IMG/VR virus record: IMGVR_UViG_3300026518_000008 | Location: 29,164 to 93,163 of that record | Length of the DNA stretch: 64,000 nt | Strand: one strand, 5' to 3' | DNA from: a virus | Part shown: positions 23,761-58,400 of the stretch, piece after piece | Numbering within the stretch: position 1 is the stretch's first letter | Layout: each line of letters starts with the position of its first letter | Notes under the pieces: model-generated | What the model saw: the letters and a program-made list of their open reading frames with translations, nothing else | What the model was told of the DNA's origin: nothing | The model's database searches: none | Program-made: the position numbers and the translations under genes

Positions 23761-24651
23761 ATGGCTACAACATTTCAAACATTGTATGGTTCAGATGATT
23801 TGTTTTTTACACCAGAACACCAATTTGGTATACGACGTTCAGAATTAGCTGATGCAACATCTAATTCTGATACAACTACAGAAAATACATCTATTCCTGA
23901 CCCAATTGATACTAACCAATCAGAACCAGGTGAGATGATTCCGTATGACACTTCACGAGATATTACATCATTGATTACAGAATTTCATGATCATCATGAC
24001 AGGCTAGAAGGTGATGCATATGTATTTGATGCAGAGATGCTATCAAATACTAGACTCCAGAATTTCCTTATGACTATTGATCATAGGGCTAGACCAGAAC
24101 AGAGAAAGATTACTATGCCAGATATGAGCAGAATTATTGAGCATGGGCTATCTATGATTGTAGATGGATATGATCAACTTGAGTATAGAGACTGTTCTAA
24201 AGTATTTCATTTTAATAACGGAGATGTACTGCTCAGAGTATCTGGATTCATCAATAGAGCTACTGAAACTATTGAAATTATTCGTTATACGAAGAAATTC
24301 AAAGTAGACCGCATGATTGATGATGTCCAGGCAAGACGAGTATTTGATTATTCGTTATATGCATCAGCATTTCTACTAGCATCAAGATATCCAGCTATTG
24401 GAACTATGATTAAAACAATTCATGAGCATTTTGGTGAATTTCATATCACTGAGCATTTCCCGTATATATCCAGCAATAATACTATTGAGTCAATACTTGA
24501 GGCATATATATCTGATATCAATTCTGGAGAATTGCCACCAGAGTGCGAGGACAAATGGACCACTCGGGCTGGAGTTAATTCTCGTTGTGAGAAATATTGT
24601 TCAGTTAAAGATATTTGTCCATTTTACACTCCTACTCACGCTGGTTCTTAG
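23761..24651 (+). CDS. Cas4-like protein with degenerate catalytic site, 296 aa
   Basis: The C terminus has the four-cysteine pattern of Cas4/AddB-type iron-sulfur nucleases (C-x14-C-x3-C-x5-C, about residues 265-290). The expected PD-(D/E)xK core G-x-I-D ... I-x-D-Y-K reads G-F-I-N-R ... I-I-R-Y-T-K, so both acidic residues are replaced and nuclease activity is doubtful. It follows the JAB gene by 10 bases and is co-transcribed with the E1/JAB cassette. The 31194 protein has the same cysteine end. Possibly a DNA-end-binding, non-catalytic partner. Confidence 0.55.
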   Translation: MATTFQTLYGSDDLFFTPEHQFGIRRSELADATSNSDTTTENTSIPDPIDTNQSEPGEMIPYDTSRDITSLITEFHDHHDRLEGDAYVFDAEMLSNTRLQNFLMTIDHRARPEQRKITMPDMSRIIEHGLSMIVDGYDQLEYRDCSKVFHFNNGDVLLRVSGFINRATETIEIIRYTKKFKVDRMIDDVQARRVFDYSLYASAFLLASRYPAIGTMIKTIHEHFGEFHITEHFPYISSNNTIESILEAYISDINSGELPPECEDKWTTRAGVNSRCEKYCSVKDICPFYTPTHAGS

Positions 24652-25370
24652 ATAGTACAGCTGGGTGTCGTTTCAGTCGACTTCTTAAGTAGAAAGTGTT
24701 CTCCCCAGCACATGTATTAATTCATTTGCGAGATAATATTCGTATCCTGCTTAGTGTGCGTGGTAGATACACAGAGCATTTTTCCATTTGGCAACTATTT
24801 ACCATTTGGAAGAACACTACAGAACCAGAGTGATGATCATCCCACAGAGAACTCATAGGAGTTTTGTTTGGGTCGATTCATATCAGTCCCTCTAACCTTA
24901 GACAGGAAGAGAAAAGAATATGCGTGTTTAGTATCAGAATTTATGCGTTAAGAAAACTGAGATGTTAATTTGTGATATTGAGTTGTAACTGCAAAACAAA
25001 AATATTAATTGGGAATATTTATATTACTAGAACGAGTCAGTGTGGCATTGCGTCTACACATACAATTCTAGTCTCCAGAAAGATGCCCAGCTGGAGTAGC
25101 GATATGAGTCTATTTATATATACTTAGTATTCGCTATATATTTTTATATATGTCTCAGCTAAACCCACACCTTATTTAAACATAGGATGGATAGCTTACT
25201 GGCAGTGCAAGTCTGTCCTGAGTACACCAAAGTCTTAATATATAATCTATTCTTGCAGAATACAGATACAACTAAACTGATTATATTTGTGGTAGTAGTA
25301 TGCCGTGAGAATATAAAATATTGCCAATATTAATACTGCTATTAAGTTTTTAGTGTAACAACACGCCTAT
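24652..25370 (+). other. Long non-coding region, probable structured RNA
   Basis: About 720 bases without a supported frame. GCTGGG near 24660 can pair with CCCAGC near 24704. ACTAGAA near 25029 pairs perfectly with TTCTAGT near 25069 and encloses a GTGT/ACAC stem; CTCCAG/CTGGAG follows at about 25074-25097. The hairpin AGAGAACTC/GAGTTTT at 24846-24865 recurs at 25896. It leads into the tRNA locus and may be the long 5' part of the same transcript. Confidence 0.4.
24846..24866 (+). repeat. Repeated hairpin AGAGAACTC-GGAGTTTT, copy 1
   Basis: AGAGAACTC, loop ATAG, GAGTTTTG. The same string with loop ACG lies at 25896-25916, so the two copies flank the structured RNA and tRNA region. Confidence 0.4.
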
Positions 25371-25383
25371 AACTATAGAACAT

Positions 25384-25492
25384 GAATCATTAGCTTACAC
25401 ATTGGTAAATCGGATCGGTATTTGTGGAACCAAGATTTCCTAAGGAGTGCATCCTTGTAGTTAAGACACTGGTTCGAGTCCAGTATGGTTCT
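25384..25492 (+). tRNA. tRNA-like sequence, unresolved
   Basis: A T arm (ACTGG, TTCGAGT, CCAGT at 25468-25484) is followed by ATGGTTC, which pairs with GAATCAT at 25384-25390 (seven pairs, one G-T). The enclosed 109 bases hold a poor D stem, a TTGTGGA loop-like string and an extra AAGGA-GTGCA-TCCTT hairpin, so no normal cloverleaf could be drawn. A half beginning GTACCAT (25508) can also pair with this 3' end at six of seven positions. Identity unknown; no CCA is encoded. Confidence 0.35.
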
Positions 25493-25507
25493 CTATAAAC
25501 ACTTTAT

Positions 25508-25540
25508 GTACCATTAGCTCAGTCTGGTAGAGCACTGTTT
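25508..25540 (+). tRNA. tRNA 5' half without a certain partner
   Basis: GTACCAT-TA-GCTC-AGTCTGGTA-GAGC-A is a textbook acceptor strand plus D arm, followed by CTGTT. The T arm 77 bases downstream ends in CGGGCCC, which cannot pair with GTACCAT. The best available 3' partner is upstream (ATGGTTC at 25485, six of seven pairs). Confidence 0.4.
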
Positions 25541-25546
25541 CTATTA

Positions 25547-25583
25547 GTATAGAACGACGGTTCGAATCCGTCCGGGCCCACCA
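25547..25583 (+). tRNA. 3' half of a permuted tRNA (partner at 25674)
   Basis: Anticodon-stem strand (G)TATAG, short variable loop AAC, T arm GACGG-TTCGAAT-CCGTC (25556-25572), acceptor CGGGCCC, A73 and an encoded CCA. CGGGCCC pairs perfectly with GGGCCCG at 25674-25680, and GTATAG pairs perfectly with CTATAC at 25701-25706. The bases just upstream (CTATTAG) would make a canonical anticodon loop, with U33 and anticodon AUU. The 3' half therefore precedes its 5' half in the genome. Confidence 0.6.
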
Positions 25584-25586
25584 TAT

Positions 25587-25668
25587 GTGCCATTAAATTT
25601 GTATCGGTAGCATTATACGCGAGATAATTCGCAAAGGACCAGAGTTCAATTCTCTGGATGGCACACCA
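25587..25668 (+). tRNA. Linear tRNA-like gene between the permuted halves
   Basis: GTGCCAT (25587) pairs with ATGGCAC (25658), followed by A and CCA. The T arm is CCAGAG-TTCAATT-CTCTGG. ATTAT-ACGCGAG-ATAAT would be a 5-bp anticodon arm with anticodon GCG, but position 33 is C and the D stem is weak, so identity is uncertain. It is the only unit here with acceptor strands in normal order and perfect pairing. Confidence 0.5.
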
Positions 25669-25673
25669 CATTA

Positions 25674-25710
25674 GGGCCCGTAGCATGAGCGGTTCATGCA
25701 CTATACATAA
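25674..25710 (+). tRNA. 5' half of a permuted tRNA (partner at 25547)
   Basis: Acceptor GGGCCCG, TA, D arm GCAT-GAGCGGTTC-ATGC, A26, then CTATAC as 5' anticodon stem. Both stems match the 3' half located 91 bases upstream (7/7 and 6/6 Watson-Crick pairs). The 3' half that follows in the genome (25765) does not fit it in register. Confidence 0.6.
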
Positions 25711-25764
25711 TTTATTTTAAAAACCAGTGACTAGTATATACAATAGACTTAGCACCATAACCAA

Positions 25765-25802
25765 GTTTTAGGTCGGAAGTTCGAGTCTTCCATCGGGCGC
25801 CA
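25765..25802 (+). tRNA. 3' half of a permuted tRNA (partner at 25810)
   Basis: Anticodon-stem strand GTTTT, canonical variable loop AGGTC, T arm GGAAG-TTCGAGT-CTTCC, acceptor ATCGGGC, G73 and an encoded CCA. ATCGGGC pairs perfectly with GCCCGAT, which lies seven bases downstream of the CCA. Confidence 0.65.
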
Positions 25803-25809
25803 TTTATAT

Positions 25810-25845
25810 GCCCGATTAGCTCAGTTGGTAGAGCAGAAATTTAAA
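25810..25845 (+). tRNA. 5' half of a permuted tRNA, ends at a terminator
   Basis: GCCCGAT-TA-GCTC-AGTTGGTA-GAGC-A is a perfect acceptor strand and D arm, followed by GAAAT, which can pair with GTTTT of the upstream 3' half (three Watson-Crick and two G-U pairs). No T arm follows; a terminator begins nine bases later, so the only possible 3' half is the one upstream. Joining would give a loop TT-NNN-AA; the anticodon depends on the processing sites (ACC if the 3' half supplies it). Confidence 0.65.
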
Positions 25846-25853
25846 CATGAATT

Positions 25854-25895
25854 ACAGGGACAAATACGGTATATTTTGTCCCTGTACCTTTTTTT
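25854..25895 (+). terminator. Rho-independent terminator of the tRNA locus
   Basis: ACAGGGACAAA (25854-25864) pairs with TTTGTCCCTGT (25875-25885), 11 bp perfect, followed by ACC and seven T. It ends the tRNA transcript directly after the last 5' half. Confidence 0.9.
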
Positions 25896-25916
25896 AGAGA
25901 ACTCACGGAGTTTTCT
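25896..25916 (+). repeat. Repeated hairpin AGAGAACTC-GGAGTTTT, copy 2
   Basis: AGAGAACTC, loop ACG, GAGTTTTCT: a 9-bp stem with one G-T, sharing its sequence with 24846-24866. It lies in the leader of rtcB. Confidence 0.4.
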
Positions 25917-25948
25917 CAAATTAGGTACAGCACAATAAAGGAATTAGA

Positions 25949-27241
25949 ATGAGACAAGATATAGAGGAACGCATTAATGCTACTAAAGTTCCATACAAAA
26001 TATATGCAGAGTTTGTCGAAGACAAAGCTGCAGAACAATTTGCAAATTGCCTAGAGCAGGAGTCTGTAGTGCAAGGAGCTCTCATGCCAGACACACATGC
26101 CGGTTACGTTGCACCTATCGGTTCTGTACTAGCTACAAATGGTACTATTTTCCCATCTTTCGTTGGATACGACATCGGATGCGGCATGAGCTCTATCCGT
26201 ACTAATATCCAATACAAATCAGTCTCAACAGAACAACTAGAGGCTATTAAAAATCAGATTCTTAGAGATATTCCTATTGGTTTTGAGAGACATTCTAAAC
26301 CTAAGACACATATCGTAGAAAGATTTCCTATGACACCTTTTGCAAAGGACGTGTTACGCACCACTGGTTCTTATCAGTTAGGCACACTTGGCGGAGGGAA
26401 TCATTTCCTTGAAATAGGATATGACAATGACGAATATTTAAATATAGTTGTTCACTCAGGTTCGCGTGGTGTTGGACATAAAATTGCCACTAAATATATG
26501 AAAGAGGCTGCAATTCAATCAGTAGACGAATCTAGATATAGAAAAGAATTTGATGAGAAAAATAAAGCTTGGCTAAATAAAATTTTAAACAGCAAATCAT
26601 CTCCAGCTAATGACAAATTACAGGATAGATACGACAAAGCTAAAACTGAATTTACTTATCGTCGCACCAGAGCTAGAGTATCGAATATTGAGGATGCGTA
26701 TCCATTAGATAACACATCAGAACCAGGGATGGGATACATGCAGGATATGAACATGGCATTGGAATTTGCTTTAGAGAATAGAGAGCTAATGATAGGTAGA
26801 TCAGTAGCTGCTATTGCTAAAGTTCTTGGCCAGGATATTTCTACTTCTCGCTTTATCAATCGAAATCATAACCATGCAGAACTAGTAGATGGTAGATGGA
26901 TACATCGCAAGGGAGCCACTCAGGCTGCAGATGGTATGATTGGAGTTATACCAGGAAACATGGTAGATGGCTCGTTCATAGTTAGATGTAGAGGTAGCTC
27001 AGATTCTATGAATTCATCATCTCATGGAGCAGGTAGAGTTTTATCTAGACGAAAAGCCAAGGATACTCTTGACCTAGAGGAGTTTATTTCTAGCACAGCT
27101 CACCTAATAGCGAACCATTCTGATTCAAACCTAGACGAATCTCCACTTGCATACAAAAATATTTTTGATGTAATGGAACAGCAGTCAGACTTGGTTAAGA
27201 CACTAGACAGAATTGTACCAATTATAAACATTAAAGGGTGA
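25949..27241 (+). CDS. rtcB: RtcB-type 3'-phosphate RNA ligase
   Basis: Joins RNA ends with 2',3'-cyclic phosphate or 3'-phosphate to 5'-OH ends, using GTP and manganese; the enzyme heals cleaved tRNAs and ligates spliced tRNA halves in archaea and metazoa. All signatures are present: M-P-D-T-H-A-G-Y, G-Y-D-I-G-C-G-M (metal Cys), L-G-G-G-N-H-F-L-E, H-S-G-S-R-G-V-G-H, N-H-N-H-A-E, H-R-K-G-A-T and S-H-G-A-G-R-V-L-S-R, with His and GTP-linkage residues conserved. 430 aa is normal. Start after AAAGGAATTAGA. It lies 50 bases after the terminator of the permuted tRNA locus, which suggests its substrate. The rIIA-like gene follows at four bases. Confidence 0.93.
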   Translation: MRQDIEERINATKVPYKIYAEFVEDKAAEQFANCLEQESVVQGALMPDTHAGYVAPIGSVLATNGTIFPSFVGYDIGCGMSSIRTNIQYKSVSTEQLEAIKNQILRDIPIGFERHSKPKTHIVERFPMTPFAKDVLRTTGSYQLGTLGGGNHFLEIGYDNDEYLNIVVHSGSRGVGHKIATKYMKEAAIQSVDESRYRKEFDEKNKAWLNKILNSKSSPANDKLQDRYDKAKTEFTYRRTRARVSNIEDAYPLDNTSEPGMGYMQDMNMALEFALENRELMIGRSVAAIAKVLGQDISTSRFINRNHNHAELVDGRWIHRKGATQAADGMIGVIPGNMVDGSFIVRCRGSSDSMNSSSHGAGRVLSRRKAKDTLDLEEFISSTAHLIANHSDSNLDESPLAYKNIFDVMEQQSDLVKTLDRIVPIINIKG

Positions 27242-27245
27242 AATT

Positions 27246-29303
27246 ATGATAGACAACAGAATAGAAACAATTACACATACGAACGCACCAATCCAGGATT
27301 TTAGTATAGCAATGAACGCAAGCATGTTTCAGATGTTAACAAAAAATGTTTACACCAATGTTATTGCTGCAGTAATCAGAGAATGGAGCACCAATGCTAT
27401 TGACGCATGTATTGCAGCTGGAGTTTCACCACGATTTGATGTACATCTTCCTACGATAGCATCACAAGTTTTTTCAGTTAGAGATTTTGGTACTGGTCTA
27501 TCATCAGATGATGTACACGGACTGTTTTCAGCTCTTGGAGCATCTACAAAACGTGAGTCAAATCAATATAACGGTACTTTTGGAATTGGCCGTATGGCTG
27601 GACTAGCATACACTGATATGTTTACTATTGAATCATTTTTCAATGGAACATTATCTACATATGTTGTATCTATACAAGATGGAATTCCGAATATGATATC
27701 TATCAATGATACAGATACAGATCTTCCAAATGGAATGAGATTATCTATTGATGTTAGAGAGTATGATATAGATAGGTTTACTAGTGAAGCTAGAGATATA
27801 TATCAGTATTTTGACACTAGACCAGATACGAATATCCAGCTTGAATATCAAGATTATTCATCAAATCTATCAGGAGATGGATGGTACATTATTAATACAA
27901 ACGTTAGAAATTACAATCTTAATTTAGTTATGGGAAATGTTTTATATACTGTATCAACATCGCAACTTAATAAAGAAGCTAGAGATGTTCTTGAAATACA
28001 TGGCTTAGTGCTAGATGTACCTATTGGATCCGTATCTATTACTCCTGGTAGAGAATCGTTGAATCTTGATAATACTACTATTACATATTTAAACAATAGT
28101 TGCAAACATGTAATAGATCAATACGAAGAACAGTTGACTAATTTAATATGCAGTTTCGACAAAGACTTTGACAAAATTATTGCATATAGCAAATATATAA
28201 CAAGGCTTGGATGGAACTTGCAAAATAGATTTAAAAATATTAGTATAGACTACAGCACACTCTATGTTAAAAACAACTGTTTGCGTTCAATAAATATGGA
28301 AGTAGGTGTGTATTATTTTAAAAATGGATTTAAGAATATTAAATCAGTAAATGAATATATACACATAACGAATAGCACTATATTCTGCATTGCAGATACA
28401 AGAATACATATTGTTGAATCTATTAAAAAATATCTATTAGAAACAAATAATAATTTTGTAGATGTATATATAGTAAAGCCAAATAGGTGGAGTAGTGATC
28501 CAGAGGACATTAAGTCTCATGTTCAATCATCTATAGAATTATTTGATGAAATTGGAATAAAGAATTACTTTAAAACATCTGACTACTCAGTGGAGAATAT
28601 ACAACGCAAGAAGTCAGGTAAAATTTCAACTATAGATTTCATGTTTGAAAACAAATATGATACAGAACCTATATCTAAAAAAGGAGTAGAGATATTATCT
28701 ATAGATACTGGACCATTCTATTATATAGAAACTTCTGGATTTAAACCTATTAGTATGACTCCAGATGAATTATCATTGCATATGAGAGCTGCTAAATTTT
28801 ATGATAACATAAATTCTACAAATACACGAATAGTTGGTGTGCCAAAATCAGCATTACGAAATACTGTTGATGACGATAGATTCATTCCATTGGCTGGAGC
28901 ACTTGATGATATATTTTCAGAAATGACTATGCCTAAATATTTTAACGATATTGGACATGAGAATTCGTTTATCCTATATGATAACAGAATACATAGATAT
29001 ACAAATCTAAATTTGCCAGATGAACTTATTGAGTTTATTACTGAGCACAAAAAATTCTTTGAACAAAACAGACAATGTATATTACCTGCAAATGCTGTTG
29101 GGATTAAGGATAGATTTGGATGCAATGTATCATCTCCTAATTCTAAGTTGTCACTTGAGGACGTGATGGAGAAATATCCATTATTTATGTATATACTTGA
29201 TACATTCTATAGAGATGGTTTGTATTTATCTATGGAACAGATAGAAAACTATGTACAGACTATATATGAAGCAGGAGACGAAGATGAGCAAAATGACCAA
29301 TAA
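27246..29303 (+). CDS. rIIA: rIIA-like GHKL ATPase, 685 aa
   Basis: The N-terminal third is a GHKL ATPase: E-W-S-T-N-A-I-D-A-C (N box, about residue 46), V-R-D-F-G-T-G-L-S (G1) and N-G-T-F-G-I-G-R-M-A-G (G2). Length and the adjoining rIIB-like gene match T4 rIIA (725 aa). In T4, rIIA/rIIB protect against the RexAB exclusion system; the mechanism is unclear. Four bases behind rtcB, overlapping rIIB-like by 20 bases. The C-terminal two thirds are Tyr/Asn-rich and poorly conserved, as in other rIIA proteins. Confidence 0.75.
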   Translation: MIDNRIETITHTNAPIQDFSIAMNASMFQMLTKNVYTNVIAAVIREWSTNAIDACIAAGVSPRFDVHLPTIASQVFSVRDFGTGLSSDDVHGLFSALGASTKRESNQYNGTFGIGRMAGLAYTDMFTIESFFNGTLSTYVVSIQDGIPNMISINDTDTDLPNGMRLSIDVREYDIDRFTSEARDIYQYFDTRPDTNIQLEYQDYSSNLSGDGWYIINTNVRNYNLNLVMGNVLYTVSTSQLNKEARDVLEIHGLVLDVPIGSVSITPGRESLNLDNTTITYLNNSCKHVIDQYEEQLTNLICSFDKDFDKIIAYSKYITRLGWNLQNRFKNISIDYSTLYVKNNCLRSINMEVGVYYFKNGFKNIKSVNEYIHITNSTIFCIADTRIHIVESIKKYLLETNNNFVDVYIVKPNRWSSDPEDIKSHVQSSIELFDEIGIKNYFKTSDYSVENIQRKKSGKISTIDFMFENKYDTEPISKKGVEILSIDTGPFYYIETSGFKPISMTPDELSLHMRAAKFYDNINSTNTRIVGVPKSALRNTVDDDRFIPLAGALDDIFSEMTMPKYFNDIGHENSFILYDNRIHRYTNLNLPDELIEFITEHKKFFEQNRQCILPANAVGIKDRFGCNVSSPNSKLSLEDVMEKYPLFMYILDTFYRDGLYLSMEQIENYVQTIYEAGDEDEQNDQ

Positions 29304-48192: not shown

Positions 48193-48435
48193 ATGGAGCA
48201 TTTTATTATTGGATTTGCAGTATTCTTCAATGGTGCAGTCATTCTTATGAAACTAAATCTTGCTAGATATTTTGACGCAGCATTTGACACAGCATTCTTA
48301 GTTGCGTTGAGCTATGTATTTGGGGGCAGTTTTGATGGTCTTGTTGCATCTACAGTTGCATCTGCATTAATGTCTATATTTCTATTCTTTTATCGTCCAA
48401 AATTTTTGGACGAAATTAGGAGGGAGCTTAGTTAG
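48193..48435 (+). CDS. Membrane protein with two or three helices, 80 aa
   Basis: I-I-G-F-A-V-F-F-N-G-A-V-I-L-M and A-F-L-V-A-L-S-Y-V-F-G-G-S and V-A-S-A-L-M-S-I-F-L-F-F are hydrophobic; the end P-K-F-L-D-E-I-R-R is cytoplasmic-like. Similar small membrane proteins occur in other phages and are sometimes called holin-like, without evidence here. Confidence 0.65.
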   Translation: MEHFIIGFAVFFNGAVILMKLNLARYFDAAFDTAFLVALSYVFGGSFDGLVASTVASALMSIFLFFYRPKFLDEIRRELS

Positions 48436-51400
48436 TATCTCAGTATATGAGGTACTATAGTACGCTCTACAGTATCCATTATTGGAGGCATATAGAATAG
48501 ATGAGTTGGGCCTTTTACAATTATTGATTTTTCTGCTATATCATCTGGATCATAGCCTATTGTTTCATCCATTAATTCCTGTCCCAATAATGCCATTAGG
48601 AATCTTACAGGTCTTTCTGTTACTCCATCTTTTATTACTTTCTGTATTCTCCATGCGTATTTCGTGAACATTGCTAGTCCCATGTCGTTTGCATATTGCA
48701 CTAGAGCACTATCTGGCTTTGTATAGTTTATGAACGCTTCTCGTATATTTACCATGAGCCTAGCTTTCATTTCATTCAGCTCTTTTGTATTCATTTTTCT
48801 ATTATTCTTTGTATAAAATCTTCTTTGAGCTCTTTCTTGTTCTAGATAGTATTGTGCATATCTTGCTACAAAATCTGACTTTTGAGTTCCATGCATCATT
48901 GCTTTAAACACCCATGTTTTCTCAGTTAGAAACATCCAGTTTCCAGCAAATTTTAATATCTCTGGAGCTCCTTCGAATTTCTCTCCCATAGCATTTACTA
49001 TTCTTGAGCTTGACTTCATATCTTCTAGGTTTGCATCTTCTGCGATTGGCTGGTACAGTCCCTCTTCTATCAGTTCATGAGCAGCATTTTCTTTCATATC
49101 TGACTTTAGCCTCATCATCTCTTTCATTTCAGCACTAGTTGCTATTCCAGAGTCTATTTTTGCTTGTAGTTTTACTACTTCTGCATTTGCTTTTGTATAC
49201 TCATTTATAGCTTTGAGACCATCTAATTGTAGTTTTGCTATAGCTATTGGACTATGTCCAAGTTGCACACTATACATCAGATTCGATATTATATTATTCA
49301 GTAGGACTCCTGGGGTTCTTATTATTATATCCACTTTAGATATAGCTACTATCTCCTTCCATATTTCCTCAGCCAATTTTATCATTGTTTTTATCACCCT
49401 AGGCATCATATTTACACCTTTGGCATCTATTATGCTAAGATCTCTTACACCGAATATATCCAGCAGCATATCTTGTCTTACATGCAGTCCTTTTTTGTAT
49501 ATTATATTTCCGCCTTCATCTGTTTCTTCCATTTTATCTATCTGCTTTTTTATGTCCGTAGGTAGAGCATTATATATTTTTCTTATCGATTCATCATTTG
49601 AGTACTTACTTACTTTTATATAGTTGTGTCCATTTCTACCAGCTTTATATCCAGTATAATTTTCTTCCATATCTAGCTTCATTTCTTCAAATGCTATTTG
49701 ATTGATCTTCCTTGACTCTTCCATATCCGTCTCATGAGACCATATTCTTCCTACGCTCTCACCTATGCTTTGTTTTAGAGATAGATTTGTTTCTTTGAAT
49801 TCTGTTCCTATTTCATACCTCATATCTACTAGGCTTCCATATTCGTCATATACTGCTCTTGATAGATTATCTGATTCTAGTATTCCTATAGCGTTTCCAT
49901 TCATCATGCTTTCTACGTCGCTATTTATATCCATTGATGCTTTTGCTTTAGCTTGTTTTATTTTATTTTGTATATTATTATCACCACTCTTTAGTAGTAT
50001 CTCATATATTCCTATCCCGCCATCTTTGTCATCCGTGAACCTAACTGTACTACGGTTTAGGTTTTGGAGATGGTGTAGCCCATTGACATATATTGCCATT
50101 TCTCCCGTTGATGTGTCCCAGCTATCTTTTCCTAACTTCTCTCTCAACGTGTATCCGTTTCTTTCCATTCTACTTTTATCTTTTATACTTGCTATTTGTA
50201 CTGTTTTAAAATCATCTAACGTATCTCTTGAATATCCTTTTTTGTATCTCGCTATTCCTACAGCTTCGTATCTTCTTTTTGCCCCAGCTCTTGTTGATTT
50301 TATTGTATTTTCTACAGCTTCTCCATCTGATTTTATCAGCTCTGCAGTTCTCTGATTTACGCTTGGATCTGTATATTTTATATATTCCAGTGTTGCCAAT
50401 TGATCTACTAGTATTTCTATTTGCTTCTGGGTTTCACCGCCTCTACTTTGATATTTTGTTCCATGCATTTTTGATATTGCTTCTGCATTTATATGCTGTG
50501 CCTTTTTTGATTTTCCTGTCAGCATATACTTGCCTAGCCCATGTGCTTGTGCTATATAGTAGTTTGCTTTTCTTTTATTACTTGATATATCTTTTATTTT
50601 TTTCTGTATTTCTATTGCCATATTCCTTCTTGCTACATCATCACTCAGTATGTTCTCTACTTCGTCTATTCCTATTTGTTCAGATAATGCTCCTATATCA
50701 CCTTTTACTATTGTCCCATATAGAGCTTTCTTATCACTATTTTTCAGCTTCTTACTGAATTGTTCTGTTATTAATGCAGATATTGTTAATGCTTGATCTT
50801 CACGATGCTTATCTACTTGCAGTGACGCCAGCATCATTTTTTGCCATTTCTCAGAATACTGATCTATATCTCTAAAATGTCTCATTAGAGTTTGTATCGT
50901 TCCCTCTTCTTTCATCCCGAACATATGCATTATCTGAGTTAGTTCTCCAGTTAATGCTGGATTTGTTGTCAGCTGATACCAGTTTGCAGCTATCCATTTC
51001 ATTTGCTTCCATTTTGGTGCAGTTGGACTTGGTCTCTCAGTTAGAGCAGCTCTCTTTGCTGCATTCTCACCTTTGTGTTGCCATTTTATGAATCTATCTT
51101 GGATATTGTCTATAGCTGTAGTTATCTTTCCAATTCTATTCTCATTTAGCTTTTTCATTGCTACATTGTTTGCAGCTGATAGCTCATTGAACAGTTTCAT
51201 TGCAAGAGCATCACCTTTCATTCCTGGTTTAATATTGTACGCCTTATCCAGAACCAGGGAGATTAGTCTATGTAGATACTCTACTATTGTATCATATATA
51301 CTCATACCTTTTGTATCTACTTTGTCTCTCTTTACATCTATTTCAGATAGTGCTTTCATTACCTTTTCATTTGTTACCGAATGTACTACGAACTCTTCTA

Positions 51401-52457
51401 GTGAGTGTTCGCTACTATTTAGATAGTGCCATAGTGCTTCGGCTTGTCTATATTCAGCTTTATAGTTTATATTCACATCTGACATCAGCATCTCTGGAGT
51501 TATATACTTCATTGTTTTTCGTCTTAGTTTTATTAGTTCTGTTTTTATATGCTTTATTCCAGGTATATCACTTGCTAGAGCATATCCTATTGCCCCATGT
51601 CCTAATTCATGAGCATATGTTTCTGCTGCAGATTTCGTTCCATTTATTACAGGTCTTTCTTGAGTTAGCGAGAGATATATCCCTGGTTCTGAGTCGACTC
51701 TTATTGCACCTTTATTTTGTACTTGGATTGGATTATTGTCTATCATTACTGGCATATTTGGTATTACTTTTGATAGCATTGACGTCATATTCGATACGAA
51801 TTCTCGCAGATACTTCTCATGAGATTCATTTTCTCCAGTGCTGTCTAGTTCTATTAACTTGTCCATTACTTTATTCAACTTCTCTGGATCATTTATGTAT
51901 TCACTATTCAGTATTGTATCGAATGTTGTGTCGTGCACCCATCCAGTTCCGTCTTGACTTGGATCCGACATTCTAAATCTTTTTAGATCTTCTATATTCC
52001 ACTGAGATTTTGCACCATTTTTCCCATATCCATTTGAGTCTACATGTATATTTTTCTTTTTTCCACCAGGAGTTACATAGTCTATTTCGTATCCACCATC
52101 CATATCAGGTTGCACCATTGTTACCAATTGTACATCTTCACGCTTGTTGTCTCCAGTGTAGTATTGTCTTCTCACAGATATTGCTTCAGGGGCTTCACCG
52201 AGCTTTTCCTCATTCATTATATCTTCTGCTTGTGCATATTCTTCACTTGGGTTATTTCCACGATACATGCTTACACCTTGTTGTGAGGGATTACTATTTA
52301 CCTCACTTACTTGCTTATTCAGAACCAGTGGAGGTAGTTTTTTCATGAGTTCTGCTTTCTTCTCATTTATGTACAGCAGCTCCTCTGGAGTTGCATGTTT
52401 TGCTAATTTTGTCAGTTGGTTCATTGTGTATCTTATCCCGCAGCTTGCATTACTCAT
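48432..52457 (-). CDS. Large virion-associated protein with HExxH protease motif, 1341 aa
   Basis: The start at 52457 is chosen for TGGAG upstream; a GTG at 52469 also exists. Residues 278-292 read A-E-T-Y-A-H-E-L-G-H-G, a zinc metalloprotease motif, with a downstream L-E-E-F-V-V-H candidate third ligand (about 355). The rest is helical and Lys/Met-rich, as in internal virion or polyvalent proteins of podoviruses. The stop of the 2491-aa gene lies in the gap between the GTG and this ATG, so the two are coupled. Likely ejected with DNA or a virion-processing protein. Confidence 0.65.
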   Translation of the reverse strand: MSNASCGIRYTMNQLTKLAKHATPEELLYINEKKAELMKKLPPLVLNKQVSEVNSNPSQQGVSMYRGNNPSEEYAQAEDIMNEEKLGEAPEAISVRRQYYTGDNKREDVQLVTMVQPDMDGGYEIDYVTPGGKKKNIHVDSNGYGKNGAKSQWNIEDLKRFRMSDPSQDGTGWVHDTTFDTILNSEYINDPEKLNKVMDKLIELDSTGENESHEKYLREFVSNMTSMLSKVIPNMPVMIDNNPIQVQNKGAIRVDSEPGIYLSLTQERPVINGTKSAAETYAHELGHGAIGYALASDIPGIKHIKTELIKLRRKTMKYITPEMLMSDVNINYKAEYRQAEALWHYLNSSEHSLEEFVVHSVTNEKVMKALSEIDVKRDKVDTKGMSIYDTIVEYLHRLISLVLDKAYNIKPGMKGDALAMKLFNELSAANNVAMKKLNENRIGKITTAIDNIQDRFIKWQHKGENAAKRAALTERPSPTAPKWKQMKWIAANWYQLTTNPALTGELTQIMHMFGMKEEGTIQTLMRHFRDIDQYSEKWQKMMLASLQVDKHREDQALTISALITEQFSKKLKNSDKKALYGTIVKGDIGALSEQIGIDEVENILSDDVARRNMAIEIQKKIKDISSNKRKANYYIAQAHGLGKYMLTGKSKKAQHINAEAISKMHGTKYQSRGGETQKQIEILVDQLATLEYIKYTDPSVNQRTAELIKSDGEAVENTIKSTRAGAKRRYEAVGIARYKKGYSRDTLDDFKTVQIASIKDKSRMERNGYTLREKLGKDSWDTSTGEMAIYVNGLHHLQNLNRSTVRFTDDKDGGIGIYEILLKSGDNNIQNKIKQAKAKASMDINSDVESMMNGNAIGILESDNLSRAVYDEYGSLVDMRYEIGTEFKETNLSLKQSIGESVGRIWSHETDMEESRKINQIAFEEMKLDMEENYTGYKAGRNGHNYIKVSKYSNDESIRKIYNALPTDIKKQIDKMEETDEGGNIIYKKGLHVRQDMLLDIFGVRDLSIIDAKGVNMMPRVIKTMIKLAEEIWKEIVAISKVDIIIRTPGVLLNNIISNLMYSVQLGHSPIAIAKLQLDGLKAINEYTKANAEVVKLQAKIDSGIATSAEMKEMMRLKSDMKENAAHELIEEGLYQPIAEDANLEDMKSSSRIVNAMGEKFEGAPEILKFAGNWMFLTEKTWVFKAMMHGTQKSDFVARYAQYYLEQERAQRRFYTKNNRKMNTKELNEMKARLMVNIREAFINYTKPDSALVQYANDMGLAMFTKYAWRIQKVIKDGVTERPVRFLMALLGQELMDETIGYDPDDIAEKSIIVKGPTHLFYMPPIMDTVERTIVPHILRY
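48434..48456. terminator. Hairpin between convergent operons
   Basis: AGTATCTCA-GTATA-TGAGGTACT, 9 bp with one G-T, at the junction of the plus-strand block and the minus-strand virion block; probably bidirectional. Confidence 0.6.
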
Positions 52458-52458
52458 A

Positions 52459-55400
52459 CTATTCTCCACATTTCTTAGCTAGGTTTATATTTTTGCTTTT
52501 CGCTAGTTTTTGTATTATATCTTCTTTCTGCTTACCGTCTACTTGCGTACCTTTAGTTTTGTATCCAGTATTTTCTGTAAATACGAATTGCATTACATTG
52601 AGATTCTGTTTTGCCATATTATCTCTATTGCCTTGTATTTCTTTTGAGCTTTCTTCCATTATGCTGAGATGTTTTGCTACAGATTTTGATTTCCATTTTA
52701 CTTTTTTTCCACTATCGTCTATCCAGAATATTTTCTTTCCGCCAGTTGACTTTAGATTATCTTTTGCATTATCTGAGTTTATTTTTGCCAGTGGATTTAT
52801 TTTCTGCTCATGTGTTCCGTGCTTTTGCATATATTCACTATGTGCGATTATTGACTCTTTTAATGCATTTTTACTAGCTTCATACATGTTATATTGACTA
52901 TTCAGCACGCTGAACCACTTGTTTAGACTTCGTACTGCTGAGTGCATATTTGTCACGCCTCCTACAGCTGCATCGAATACTGGATTGATTCCATCGTTCT
53001 CATTGATTGTCATTGCCATATTTGCACCATCTATTGTCTGAGTTAGTCCTACTGCTGCTGCTGACATTGCTTCTGCTAGAGTTCTCTCTATCGACTGTAT
53101 GTTTATTGATGCTTGTTCTTCTCCTATGAGCTTTACATTTACATCTCTCATATCCTCTCTTGATTTTATCATTGAGTTGAATATTGCCACACCATCTTCT
53201 CTGCTAGTTGATAGTGGTCCAGCTACAATTGGGAATATCGCTCTTATTTCTGGTCTATTTGTTATTTTTTCTAGTTGAGCTATTGATATGTTTCCGCCTT
53301 TGCCTATTTCCATTTCTAGCACTTCCATATACATTCTCATTTGATATTTCGATGCATCATTCATTTGATTACTGTATTCAGCTGCTTGTCCTAGCTCAGA
53401 TTCTAATATCTCCGTGATTGCTTCTCCATATGTACTTCTTACTATTAATTCTAGTCTTTCTGCCAGCGGATACGATAGATTTGATTTGTCGCTATCTATT
53501 GAGTTGTTTCTCAGGAATTCTCTATATTCATTGTGATGACTTTCTGGTATTCCTAGCGAATTCATTATTATTTTTCCTTGCTTGCTTTCATTTACTATAT
53601 CATCTGGTACATTTTTCATCATTACTCTTGCTAGTGATTTTATTATTGAGTTCATTCCAGCTGAGTAGTTAAACGTCATGAACGGATCTTTTAGCAGCTC
53701 TCTCATTGATGAGTCTATTTCATCTACTATCTTTTCTTCGACTACATCAGAACCAGGGATGTAGGGTATTAGTGCATCGAGTTGTTTTTCGAATCCTTCA
53801 TATTCTTCTGTGTCTCCATTCTCTAATCCTTCAGCTCTTCTTTTTTTTATCCATGCTTTACCATTTGCTATTATATCTTTTATTGCTAATAGCTTTTGAG
53901 CAAGTCCTTCGTAACTATCCAGCTGACCAGGTCTTGACAGTATATCATTCGTACTCATCCCTGGTTCTGCATCAGCGTCTACTATTCCTACGCGTTTCTG
54001 CCATTCGCCATCTTCATCTTCTACCATACCTTGTGCTACTTTGATTGCAAATCCATTTGTCTTTCCATCTACTTCTAGCACTAGATTTGTATTGAACTTT
54101 CCATCTTCTTGCATCTGATATGCTTGTACTGCATTTAGTGCTGACATTATATGTCCTAGGTGATCTACTTTTATCTTCACTATTTCATTATTGTGTTTTA
54201 TCCCTATAGATTTTTCTCCAGATTTTATCGCAGACATTACTGTGCTTCGTAGTTTTTTTGCGGGTATGTCTAGTATTTGCTCTGCCAGTTCTTCTCTTTT
54301 TTTTGTTTCGATTCCATCTACTTTTATTCCGAACGCTTGACCTATGCCATAGAGGAATGCTTCTCTATGTTCATTGTTTGACATATCAGCTTCTGCGTAG
54401 CTCTCTTTTCCAGTTACTAGCCATCTTTGTATATGTTTTTGAGATTGAGGATCCAGTATATTGCCATCTAGGAACATTCTATTTGTTTTTGACACGAACC
54501 AGTCGAAATATATTTCATTATCTATTTCTCCAGATTCTATCTTTTGATATACTTCCTCTAGTCCATTCCATTCATTTTCCAGCTGGAAGTTCTTGCCTTT
54601 TTGTGCTTCTATTGTATCATGAGAGTATTTTTTTGATTTTTTCATTTGATCTACATTTTTCCACCCCATTATCTCTAGAGCTTTTTCTTTTCCTATCTCC
54701 ATTAGGTTTTGCATGCCGTTCATATCTATATTGTATTCTTGATTTGTTTGTTTGTTTACAGATTCTTGCATTGCAGGATATACATCAGAGTGAGGATTGT
54801 TTTTTACTTTTGATACATGATTTGTCATATCCTTTTTCTTTGTTCTATATGTTTTTATCATTTTGTCTACGCCAACTTCTGTGTCTAGTCTTTCTAGCTT
54901 TCTTTTTGCTAGCTTTGTCTCTCCTATCATATTGTATTCATCTGATATTTTTACCATAGGCATACTTGCATCTTTATTTATGGCATCTATTTCTTTTTTA
55001 CTTTTTCCTTGTAGTTGAGCTATATATTTTGCATTTACACTGCTTTGACTATGCTGTTTTATTTTACCTAGTGCTCTCATATTTTGGAACACCATCTCGC
55101 CTAGACCTTGTTTTATTGCTATGTAGTCTGCATTTTTTCCATTTGGATTCTGTATTATCCCTAGTTGTTTCATTATTGATTCACCAGCACTATTCGTGAA
55201 ATACTTCAGTGGAATTCCTTGTCCTAGAGTTTCCATTATATCTGCAGTTATATTTTCTTCATTTATACCATAGTAGCTAGCTATATCTTTAGGTCTTGCC
55301 ATTTGTATTCTACTCATGTTATTTGCTAGTATGTCTTGGGTTACTGTTGCTATTGCTCCTACTACATTCCAGTTCAAATCTCCGCTTGCATTATACAGTA

Positions 55401-58400
55401 GTGCTATCGCTGGATTGTCATACAGGGCGAATTTTGGATCTTGTATTTTTACGTCTTTGTTTGGAGTTATTCTTGGAGCAGGTATACTTTGTAGTAGATT
55501 GTTTCCAGTGATTACTGATTCTGACCATATCATACTATTTTCACCATGCTCAGCTATATTTATTGATCCTAGTGATGACTTACTTTTTCCTTCTTTAGTT
55601 GTTATCATATCAGGTATATATATATTTCTAGTCGTACGAATGTAGTTTCCATTTTTATCTTTTATGTATTGTCCATTTTTATCTTTTTCTCTGACAGACA
55701 TAGTTTTTTGTGCATCTCCATAATTATTTATTACTACAGAGTTTAGTCCAGTTGTCTTTTGACTATCTATCAGATCTTGTGTCTTGTACACTTTTCCTAT
55801 TTCTGCTTTGAGCTCTTTGACTCTTTTTATCATCTTGTCACGAGTTTTGAACAGTTTTGGTTTTGACTTTTGTATTGCATCTCTAGTATTTTTATTTGCT
55901 TTTTGTCTTGCATAGTCCATAGCTCGTTTTGAATTTATTGTTGCTTGTTTTTGTTGTATGTCTTTTATTCTTGCATTGATTTCATCTACTATTTTTTGTT
56001 GAGCTTTTGCTTTTTTGAGTATATTTCGTAGTTGTCCAGCTTTATCAGTGAATGCTTTCCATGCTTTATATCTTCCATCTTTTGTGAGCAGATCGTTTAG
56101 ATGTGCATATATCTCTTTTCCTAGTTTTTTTCCTAGTTGCGTTATTCTATCAGCTAGAGTATTGATTGACTTTGATTCATCATTTATTTCATTTGCTTTT
56201 TCTTGATTGAATCCTTTCATCATTCGCTTTGTATGGTTGTCCCATTTTAACATTGCTTTTTTTGCTTGATTCTTTATTGATTTGAGCTTTATTTTTTCTT
56301 TTTCCAGCTTTTTTATTTCAGCTTTATATTCATCGCTCAGCTTTTTTTGCTTTTCTTTGAATTCAGATTTTGCTTCTTTGCTATTTAGTCTTTCATATAT
56401 CTTCTGAGCATCTTCCAATAGTGAGTCTATCTGTGTATTTTTTGACTCTAGAGTTTTTCGTATCACCTCATGCTCTTTTTCTATTTTCTTTTCCAGCTCA
56501 TTTATTTCTTTGATTCTTTCTTCTGCTTTACTTAGTTCTACCTTTGGTTCTTCGGTTGGTTTAGTTTTAGTTTCTGTTTCAGTATCATTATTTGCTTCAT
56601 CTTTTATTTCTGTATTTATATCTGATTTTGTATCTGATTTTGTATCTTGATTGATTACTTCAGAACCAGAGGCACGAGGTATCATTCCAGTTGTGTCGCC
56701 TTCCATCTCTTCTAGCATTGGATTTGATTCTTGAGCAGTTGTTCTACCTTCGTATTTGTATCCCTGGTTCTGAGGTGATACTTCTTTTTTCGCATCATTA
56801 TCTTCTTTGTTGCTTATGTCGAGCTTGTCATGATTTACTGCTGATAGCATTAGGTCTTGCTCTTCTTTTAGTGCATTTATTACATTTTGCACAGAGCTAT
56901 TGCTTGCCCCTATACCTGCAGCCATCATTTGCCTAGTTGCTTCTTTTTTATTTGCAGTGCTTTGTTTTTTGTCAGTGCTATACAGCTCAGAGCTTAGATC
57001 AAGATCTGGAGATATCTTTCCTTCTTCTTGAGCTATTTTCATGTCTCCTATTGTTATAGTTCCATTTTGAGATACATAGTCAGACCCCAGTTGATCATGT
57101 GCTAGATCAGTCAGTGTTTCTCTCGCATTTAGTTGGAATTCTCCTTGATTTTTTCCATATATATCTTGATTTGAATATTGAGTTTTTATCATTGAGTCTT
57201 TAGACAGAGCATGATTGCTTTTATATATATCTATTGCATTTTGTATTTTTGGATTTTTAGACTTTGTTATTTTCATATACTCATATGGTTTTAGTCTATG
57301 TTCTTCTGCCATTGCTATTTGTAGTGCATTCTTATATGGTATTTGAGCTGCTTTTGCGAATGCCACTATATTATCATTCACTACGCTTTTTGCTTCTTCT
57401 TGGGCAGCAATGAGTTTATTGGTCTTATCTTGTTGAACACCAGCGAACCTATGCATTTCAGATTTCCACTTATTCTTTTCGTCTTCAGTTTCTGACTCCA
57501 TCATATTTTTATAGTAGTCAATATATCCTAGTCTATTTTCTCTTTTGAATCCATCAACTTCTACACGTTTTCCTACTTGTCTCATATCTTCTCTTAGGCC
57601 GACATATTTTTTTGCCATCTCCACAGAATTGTTGTATTCTTCTTCTTTCATACCGTTTTTTAGTGCGAACGATTTAAACTCATCCGTATCTATACTTTTT
57701 AGCTCTTCTCTTGTTCCCATTCCTAGCATTGCTTTACGTATTATATTGTCTGTTTCTCTAGGAGTTGCACCTTTTAGTATTTTGTTTATTTCTTCATAGT
57801 CTCCATGTGCAGTATTGTATGCAGCTTCTGCAACATATGGCATTGTTACACTATTGTCTACTCTATTTTTTATTCTGAGTAGTGCATCTTTTTCTGGACC
57901 ATCTTCCATTGCTACTATTTTTTGTTTGAGCTCTCTACTCTTTTTGAATCCCTCTAGTGGATCAGTTTGCCCAATAGATTCCATATCATATATATCTTTT
58001 CTTGTCTGATTTCCTAGATTTGACATTTGTAGATTGTCATCTTCTTCTATTGTTTGAGTATTTATTGCTGCTTGAGCTTGTTCTTCATTGTATTTTTCTC
58101 TTTCTTCTTGATTCATATTTGCTATCTTATCTTCTTGTGCATTTTTCTTTTTTTTGTCATTCATGTCTTTAACTGCTGGTATTACTTCTGCACCACCAGA
58201 TATTATTGCACCTGGACCCATTGCTGCTCCGAATGATTGGAACATCTCTCTTCCTAGTGTTCCATCGTAGAGTTCTTTTTCTGCATTTGTTCCAAATTTT
58301 TCACTGAATGATTGCACTATCTGCTGAGCTGTTTCAGTTATGCCTTCATATCCAGCCTTGCCAGATACCTTGAGTGCTTTTTGTGCGAATGTTTTTACTA

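Follow-up and report, generated by a model that had tools for sequence, protein, structure and literature searches.

A permuted tRNA-like array upstream of rtcB in an N4-like phage: candidate YrlA-type tRNA mimics with CCA ends

What is encoded by a run of tRNA-like halves that stand in inverted order, 3' half before 5' half, immediately upstream of a gene for the RNA ligase RtcB in a phage? The locus lies in a stretch of 64 kb, here called the window, from an IMG/VR virus record of 93,163 bases that may itself be a fragment. An initial annotation had read it as permuted tRNA genes in a phage, beside RtcB; the permuted order, the phage context and the RtcB neighbour are retained here, and the term "tRNA genes" is not. 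From its sequence the record is classed as an N4-like phage, by matches to a primase, to a Sak4-like protein and, in two adjacent frames, to the virion RNA polymerase, and these marker genes make a bacterial host likely. The polymerase match is split over window positions 48432-52469 and 52459-59934 (minus strand), in frames that overlap by 11 bases.

The rtcB locus and the order of the halves

Between the end of the upstream frame (24651) and rtcB lie 1.3 kb, in which the only listed frame of at least 60 amino acids is on the minus strand at 25519-25701; the approximately 730 bases upstream of the array (24652-25380) hold none of this length. The rtcB gene (25949-27241, plus strand) encodes 430 amino acids, matches PF01139 (4.7e-81) and has the conserved RtcB motifs, to which we presumptively assign a catalytic meaning. 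On its 3' side, at 27246-29303, lies a gene for a HATPase_c_3 protein of 685 amino acids (PF13589, 9.3e-07). The last 5' half runs, as had been described, directly into a terminator-like hairpin (25853-25895, plus strand; stem 25853-25886, -17.7 kcal/mol), whose seven T (25889-25895) end just short of the start of rtcB at 25949. This hairpin is absent from the output of the pattern scan for terminators because its loop has 10 bases and the scan accepts 3-8. A promoter scan returned three candidates against 5.7 expected in shuffles, and a T-arm-like, or 3' half-like, stretch at 25199-25229 was set aside as chance (2.2 bits with a linear model). Relatives of the two proteins that flank the array locus were searched and none was confirmed, the exact pattern of the unit called d-D below has no match in viral contigs, and thus neither search found a relative of the array locus itself. 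The near relative by primase is 83% identical in that protein, and its 24-kb contig, judged by coordinates, stops short of the locus.

The halves follow one another on the plus strand in the order P a A b B c C d D, with four 3' halves (a to d) and four or five 5' halves (A to D, and P). In the unit d-D, half d consists of an anticodon-side strand (25763-25769), a 5-base variable loop, the T arm (25775-25791), the acceptor strand ATCGGGC (25792-25798) and GCCA (25799-25802). A linker of seven bases, TTTATAT (25803-25809), leads from the CCA to half D, in which the acceptor strand GCCCGAT (25810-25816) is followed by a D arm that extends to 25834 and an anticodon-side strand (25836-25842). The unit b-C is built likewise from half b, with GTATAG on the anticodon side (25547-25552), a T arm (25556-25572), the acceptor strand CGGGCCC (25573-25579) and ACCA (25580-25583), and half C, with the acceptor strand GGGCCCG (25674-25680), a D arm and CTATAC (25701-25706). 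The initial annotation had quoted these acceptor and anticodon-side motifs, and all are found where it placed them. In permuted order, b-C forms 7/7 acceptor and 6/6 anticodon-side pairs, with the caveat that GGGCCC is its own reverse complement. Its linker of 90 bases encloses a further tRNA-like hairpin in linear order, B-c (25587-25668), with a 7/7 acceptor (GTGCCAT/ATGGCAC) and ACCA; the D and anticodon arms of B-c are weak and the linear model gives it only 22.0 bits, which makes it a poor tRNA. The unit a-A (25463-25536) comprises a T arm (25468-25484), the acceptor strand ATGGTTC (25485-25491) followed by TCTA, and a 5' half with GTACCAT and a D arm (25508-25533), and pairs in 6/7 acceptor positions in permuted order. 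A candidate 5' acceptor strand, GAATCAT (P, 25384-25390), pairs with half a in linear order through six Watson-Crick pairs and one GU pair.

When all acceptor strands are compared, three combinations give 7/7 Watson-Crick matches, two of them inverted (D-d and C-b) and one linear (B-c); A-c reaches 6/7. That the linear partners of these halves fail to pair had been claimed and holds for A-b (3/7) and C-d (2/7); the linear pair B-c had been left out. Similarly, an encoded CCA had been attributed to the 3' halves, and N-CCA follows three of the four (b, c and d), half a ending in TCTA. How often such matches arise by chance was estimated by pairing the halves of 67 distinct phage tRNAs with one another. 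Of the 4422 non-cognate combinations, 24 had 7/7 standard pairs, two had 7/7 Watson-Crick pairs and three combined a full acceptor with a full anticodon stem; the array leaves 20 half-by-half combinations open.

Covariance models and folding

Two covariance models were built from the same 25 ordinary phage tRNAs, one linear (R2) and one (R1) for which each tRNA was split in silico at the anticodon and its 3' half placed before its 5' half. R1 gives d-D (25763-25842) 68.4 bits with 21/21 pairs formed and no mismatch. It gives a-A 41.4 bits without an anticodon stem, and its two further matches in the array are poor (14.7 and 11.5 bits); b-C is not found as such, because its linker is too long for the model. 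R2 in turn scores a linear chimera of A and b (25508-25583) at 40.9 bits with mismatched stems, a body to which the Rfam tRNA model assigns 26.0 bits against a cut-off of 29. Since this linear alternative scores the same as a-A, a-A is not used as firm evidence. A linear search that yielded complete tRNAs with paired acceptors had been named as the outcome that would speak against permutation. Of the linear readings in the array, A-b has mismatched stems, and B-c has a paired acceptor at only 22.0 bits. ARAGORN in linear mode reports no tRNA in the window and Rfam no match at the gathering threshold, so that RNAs of this kind can escape a linear ARAGORN run. Outside the window, ARAGORN detects a tRNA-Gln and a tRNA-Ser in the record, and R2 a third, weaker tRNA (35.0 bits).

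R1 also scores tandem arrays of linear tRNAs, because there the 3' half of one gene precedes the 5' half of the next. Over 49 records of RtcB-carrying phages it returned about 424 matches (a sum, one record being scored only partly), and the three highest are 68.4 bits (d-D), 62.9 bits (phage G045) and 61.3 bits (phage G021). The fourth, at 52.7 bits, is the best tandem of linear tRNAs in these records. Ordinary tandems were therefore rejected as an account of the top three: they reach at most 52.7 bits and show mismatches in the acceptor or the anticodon stem, and the top three lie at 61-68 bits with no mismatch. For the remaining 32 of the 80 viral RtcB loci, R1 scored the flanking sequence at 31.3 bits or less. 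By this distribution d-D is exceptional and a-A is not.

Folding separates the two units in another way. The native fold of b-C has a z of -4.76, equalled by none of 200 shuffles, and in the transcript 25380-25895 its acceptor pairs have probabilities of 0.9-1.0 and its 6-bp anticodon-side helix 0.31-0.32; its minimum fold has a basal helix of 6+4 bp interrupted by a bulge. For d-D the z is only -2.08, with 5 of 200 shuffles equal to it, and the anticodon-side helix, of at most 7 bp, has a probability of 0.0 in the folded transcript. The unit b-C is sound by pairing and folding, and a-A is ambiguous by its model scores; the low helix probability and z of d-D count against reading the array as tRNA mimics.

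Permuted elements at other RtcB loci

The elements that rank next to d-D, L086 in G045 and L087 in G021, belong to phages that also carry RtcB. They share the anticodon stem ACAAT/ATTGT and their acceptors differ by paired changes (CATCCGC/GTGGATG and CGTCATG/CATGATG). L086 lies 115 bases past a gene with DUF2828 and DUF7788, and the G021 element lies downstream of a DUF2828 match on the same strand. This two-domain layout is probably that of Ro60 (TROVE plus vWA). Pfam vWA_Ro60 matches the gene under the cut-off (E 0.0025), and its relatives in other phages are annotated as Ro-like or Ro sixty-related. L086 aligns with all 114 positions of the Rfam YrlA model at 34.0 bits. DUF2828 occurs in three of the 49 RtcB-phage records (G001, G021 and G045). 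Among eight Ro-like phage loci that were fetched, one has an accepted permuted element beside the gene, Mycobacterium phage Chaser (L129), where a 32.2-bit element with two mismatched anticodon pairs follows an annotated Ro-like gene. An ACAGCA motif is found at the distal stem in L086 and L087; in L129 the motif and its stem form a neighbouring hairpin. These three elements resemble the array in having a permuted tRNA-like domain in a phage and differ from it in adjoining a Ro-like gene and lacking N-CCA, which is also absent from the permuted elements of two other phages, G046 and G036. In the literature, a paper that cites mycobacteriophage Y RNAs suspects that a Listeria phage, too, has Y RNAs close to its Rsr-like gene (PMC12282133), and jumbo phages are described as having TROVE proteins with a tRNA-like partner (PMC7824862).

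Several further observations concern RtcB phages. In G046, which lacks a DUF2828 match, the element at L094 1501-1600 (R1 42.7 bits) has an acceptor that continues into a perfect 13-bp hairpin. In G036, also without such a match, the element at L231 486-557 (36.9 bits) has a short acceptor loop; its YrlA score of 35.2 bits is the best of the 49 records, and a linear chimera is possible there too. The closest RtcB found is that of G001 (56%), in which hairpins with the ACAGCA motif lie upstream of the Ro-like gene (L230 1541-2140; two located by script, others by eye), and one of them seems to be placed at the anticodon arm of a tRNA-like domain in linear order. Of the 80 viral RtcB loci (L002-L081), 13 have a tRNA-Pro(TGG) no more than 700 bases from rtcB, and three of these 13 (L062, L063 and L065) look like near copies; the next most frequent tRNA is so placed in two loci.

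A cellular parallel comes from the Sulfurovaceae. R1 was run on 53 of 80 loci of RtcB relatives from cellular genomes and exceeded 50 bits at two. One of them, L191 (52.0 bits), was rejected for mismatched acceptor and anticodon pairs, as in tandem tRNAs. The other, L184 of a Sulfurovum genome (G049, 51.3 bits), is one of two tandem permuted domains and contains no ARAGORN tRNA. When 175 genomes of the family were searched at the DNA level, 17 gave matches, 13 of these over 29-32 bases only. R1 on six fetched loci identified permuted elements of 45-54 bits in G049, G212, G217 and G210, the last with one non-standard pair in the D stem; L237 and L242 were discarded as ordinary tRNA-Gln/tRNA-Met pairs. 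Tandem permuted tRNA-like domains lie on the minus strand at L234 1546-1679, L235 1535-1631 and L238 1535-1702. Their acceptor and anticodon-side stems show paired changes between genomes, and the acceptor loop has few bases, with little or no room for CCA. Neighbouring genes include a WYL regulator in G049 and Band_7 and RtcB in G217; no TROVE domain was found in G049. The YrlA model gives the best domain of three of these genomes 39.0-42.6 bits, below its cut-off of 69. Linear models also respond, and this counts against the permuted reading of these domains: the Rfam tRNA model has four matches across the junctions at 29.5-40.1 bits, over its cut-off of 29, and R2 gives L184 31.2 bits. These matches are probably chimeric in the manner of A-b, since in the best junction match the anticodon arm is passed over and 2/7 acceptor pairs are mismatched. 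The loci L234, L235, L236 and L238 are thus like the array in having tandem permuted units near RtcB, with no TROVE found in G049, and unlike it in their cellular genomes, their short acceptor loop and the adjoining Band_7 gene.

When nine permuted elements are aligned to R1, 98.3% of paired cells are paired and covariation is 0.810, against 0.222 in shuffled and at most 0.125 in slid alignments, in an alignment that is model-fitted and whose elements were picked by the same model. Shapes like those of d-D and b-C thus covary at other RtcB loci.

Decoding tRNAs, a relic or tRNA mimics

If the units were true permuted tRNA genes, their transcripts would be cut in the anticodon region, RtcB would seal the halves, perhaps into a circle, and RNase P and 3' trimming would then free the acceptor ends to yield a decoding tRNA. 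The anatomy of d-D invites this reading: all tRNA stems are present, the variable loop has five bases, TT and AA occupy their expected places in the loop, GCCA is followed by the linker of seven bases, and rtcB adjoins. One review puts the number of permuted tRNA genes at 34, from six algae and a single archaeon (PMC3978253). Like the array, the algal and Thermofilum genes place the 3' half upstream of the 5' half with a short intervening sequence (PMC3978253, PMC3218864), and CCA is encoded in Thermofilum, by two archaeal permuted tRNAs (PMC3218864). Those genes, however, have readable anticodons and a BHB-type junction. Joined with a 7-base loop, d-D permits only the anticodons ACC, AAC and AAA, which none of 355 linear tRNAs from the fetched loci (some overlapping) carries. 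U33 is present in d-D; b-C has A at this position, and in a-A the strands that should form the anticodon stem do not pair. The same enumeration would allow standard anticodons for L086 and L087, so that the test can also be passed, although a pass would be no proof of a tRNA. On the phage side, the tRNA splicing endonuclease (tRNA_int_endo, PF01974) has no match in the 93-kb record. On these grounds the term "tRNA genes" is not supported. The 90-base linker of b-C, which harbours another tRNA-like hairpin, and the service of the permuted shape as Y RNA elsewhere also argue against it. A phage with genuine CCA-bearing permuted tRNA genes, sealed by RtcB at the anticodon without an archaeal or eukaryal splicing endonuclease, therefore seems improbable, and among the literature matches listed, seen as titles and abstract openings (preprints outside the scope, few subscription papers), there is no report of permuted tRNA genes in a phage. 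Scarcely credible is a permuted, two-piece tmRNA: the Rfam model tmRNA_permuted gives 23.0 bits at 25556-25682, against a gathering score of 47 and over positions 36-95 of 213 only, and ARAGORN, which can detect tmRNA, finds none in the window.

The array may also be a functionless relic of CCA-encoding tRNA genes, in which tandem duplication and loss of outer halves put 3' before 5' halves. The degenerate B-c and the mismatched A-b, which keeps linear tRNA spacing, would fit such decay. So would the CCA kept at b, c and d, which points to an origin from tRNAs by its sequence, and the blastn search of the array region against the phage collection, which matched only short tRNA stretches in 12 records, among them the junction of a tandem tRNA-Arg/tRNA-Gly in a Vibrio phage. 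To place in one array two permuted units that each have a full acceptor and a matching anticodon side would nevertheless need repeated events, such matches being rare by chance (3/4422), and other RtcB loci keep this arrangement through compensatory changes. We consider a relic rather unlikely.

The best Rfam family in the stretch is YrlA (RF02553), whose two matches score 33.9 and 30.0 bits where the cut-off is 69; this model also matches below threshold in 13 of the 49 phage records and in nine of 14 control genomes. The initial annotation had made no mention of YrlA, whose architecture is permuted in the same way. YrlA RNAs carry a tRNA-like domain on a large Rsr-binding stem, and the tRNA-like part binds PNPase (PMC8394870); in some bacteria they are in an operon with rtcBA (PMC8394870, PMC7790460). 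As in YrlA and the Salmonella rsr-yrlBA-rtcBA locus, the array has a permuted T arm, acceptor hairpin and D arm with rtcB adjoining (PMC7790460, PMC8394870). This domain is present in d-D and b-C and is the part that the YrlA alignment covers. Filing the array under YrlA itself was tried by stem, partner and Rfam cut-off and rejected. The scores lie below the cut-off, there is no long Ro-binding basal stem at d-D or b-C, no ACAGCA motif with a stem occurs in 24600-26000, and TROVE (PF05731), DUF2828 (PF11443) and DUF7788 (PF25043) have no match in the 93-kb record, a possible fragment. The array differs further in its N-CCA and in having two or three units in a row. Y RNAs would not be expected to end in N-CCA, and its presence at b, c and d counts against a mimic; as a tRNA feature absent from the compared Y-type elements, it makes a tRNA origin possible, and less probably a tRNA function.

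The reading that we favour, with a probability of about 0.55, is that the array, at an RNA-repair locus, is a variant of YrlA-type tRNA mimics that lacks Ro and bears CCA, and that it works like the tRNA-like domain of YrlA without being YrlA in the formal sense. It draws on the R1 score of d-D, the pairing and fold of b-C, the lack of usable anticodons and YrlA as the best Rfam family, and equally on the same shape beside Ro-like genes (G045, G021 and Chaser), the tandems at Sulfurovaceae RtcB loci and the covariation of the nine elements. Overall, the array looks more like the tRNA mimics among Y RNAs than like decoding tRNAs, yet it keeps the CCA ends of tRNAs. As mimics, the array would give rise to short YrlA-type permuted tRNA-like noncoding RNAs without a Ro-binding stem, terminated just 5' of rtcB, which would not decode. 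Their CCA is explained if, as we propose, phage tRNA genes that encode CCA were the source of the 3' halves. They could bind proteins that recognise tRNAs, as a decoy for an anticodon nuclease or another tRNA-cutting defence, or PNPase as YrlA does, and RtcB would re-ligate the real tRNAs that were cut. A decoy, in preference to a PNPase tether or a scaffold for RtcB, is a tentative guess. The possibility that YrlA inhibits a nuclease that cuts tRNAs has been raised (PMC7790460), and a phage decoy beside RtcB would, by analogy, fit this idea.

The array widens the range of permuted tRNA-like RNAs to an RtcB locus of a phage in which no Ro gene is recognised. Together with the Sulfurovaceae domains and the Ro-carrying phages, it suggests one theme, that of tRNA mimics beside RNA repair. 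If the RNAs act as decoys against defences that cut tRNAs, decoy and repair enzyme would be combined in one phage; if they mature to tRNAs instead, the phage RtcB would serve in tRNA biosynthesis.
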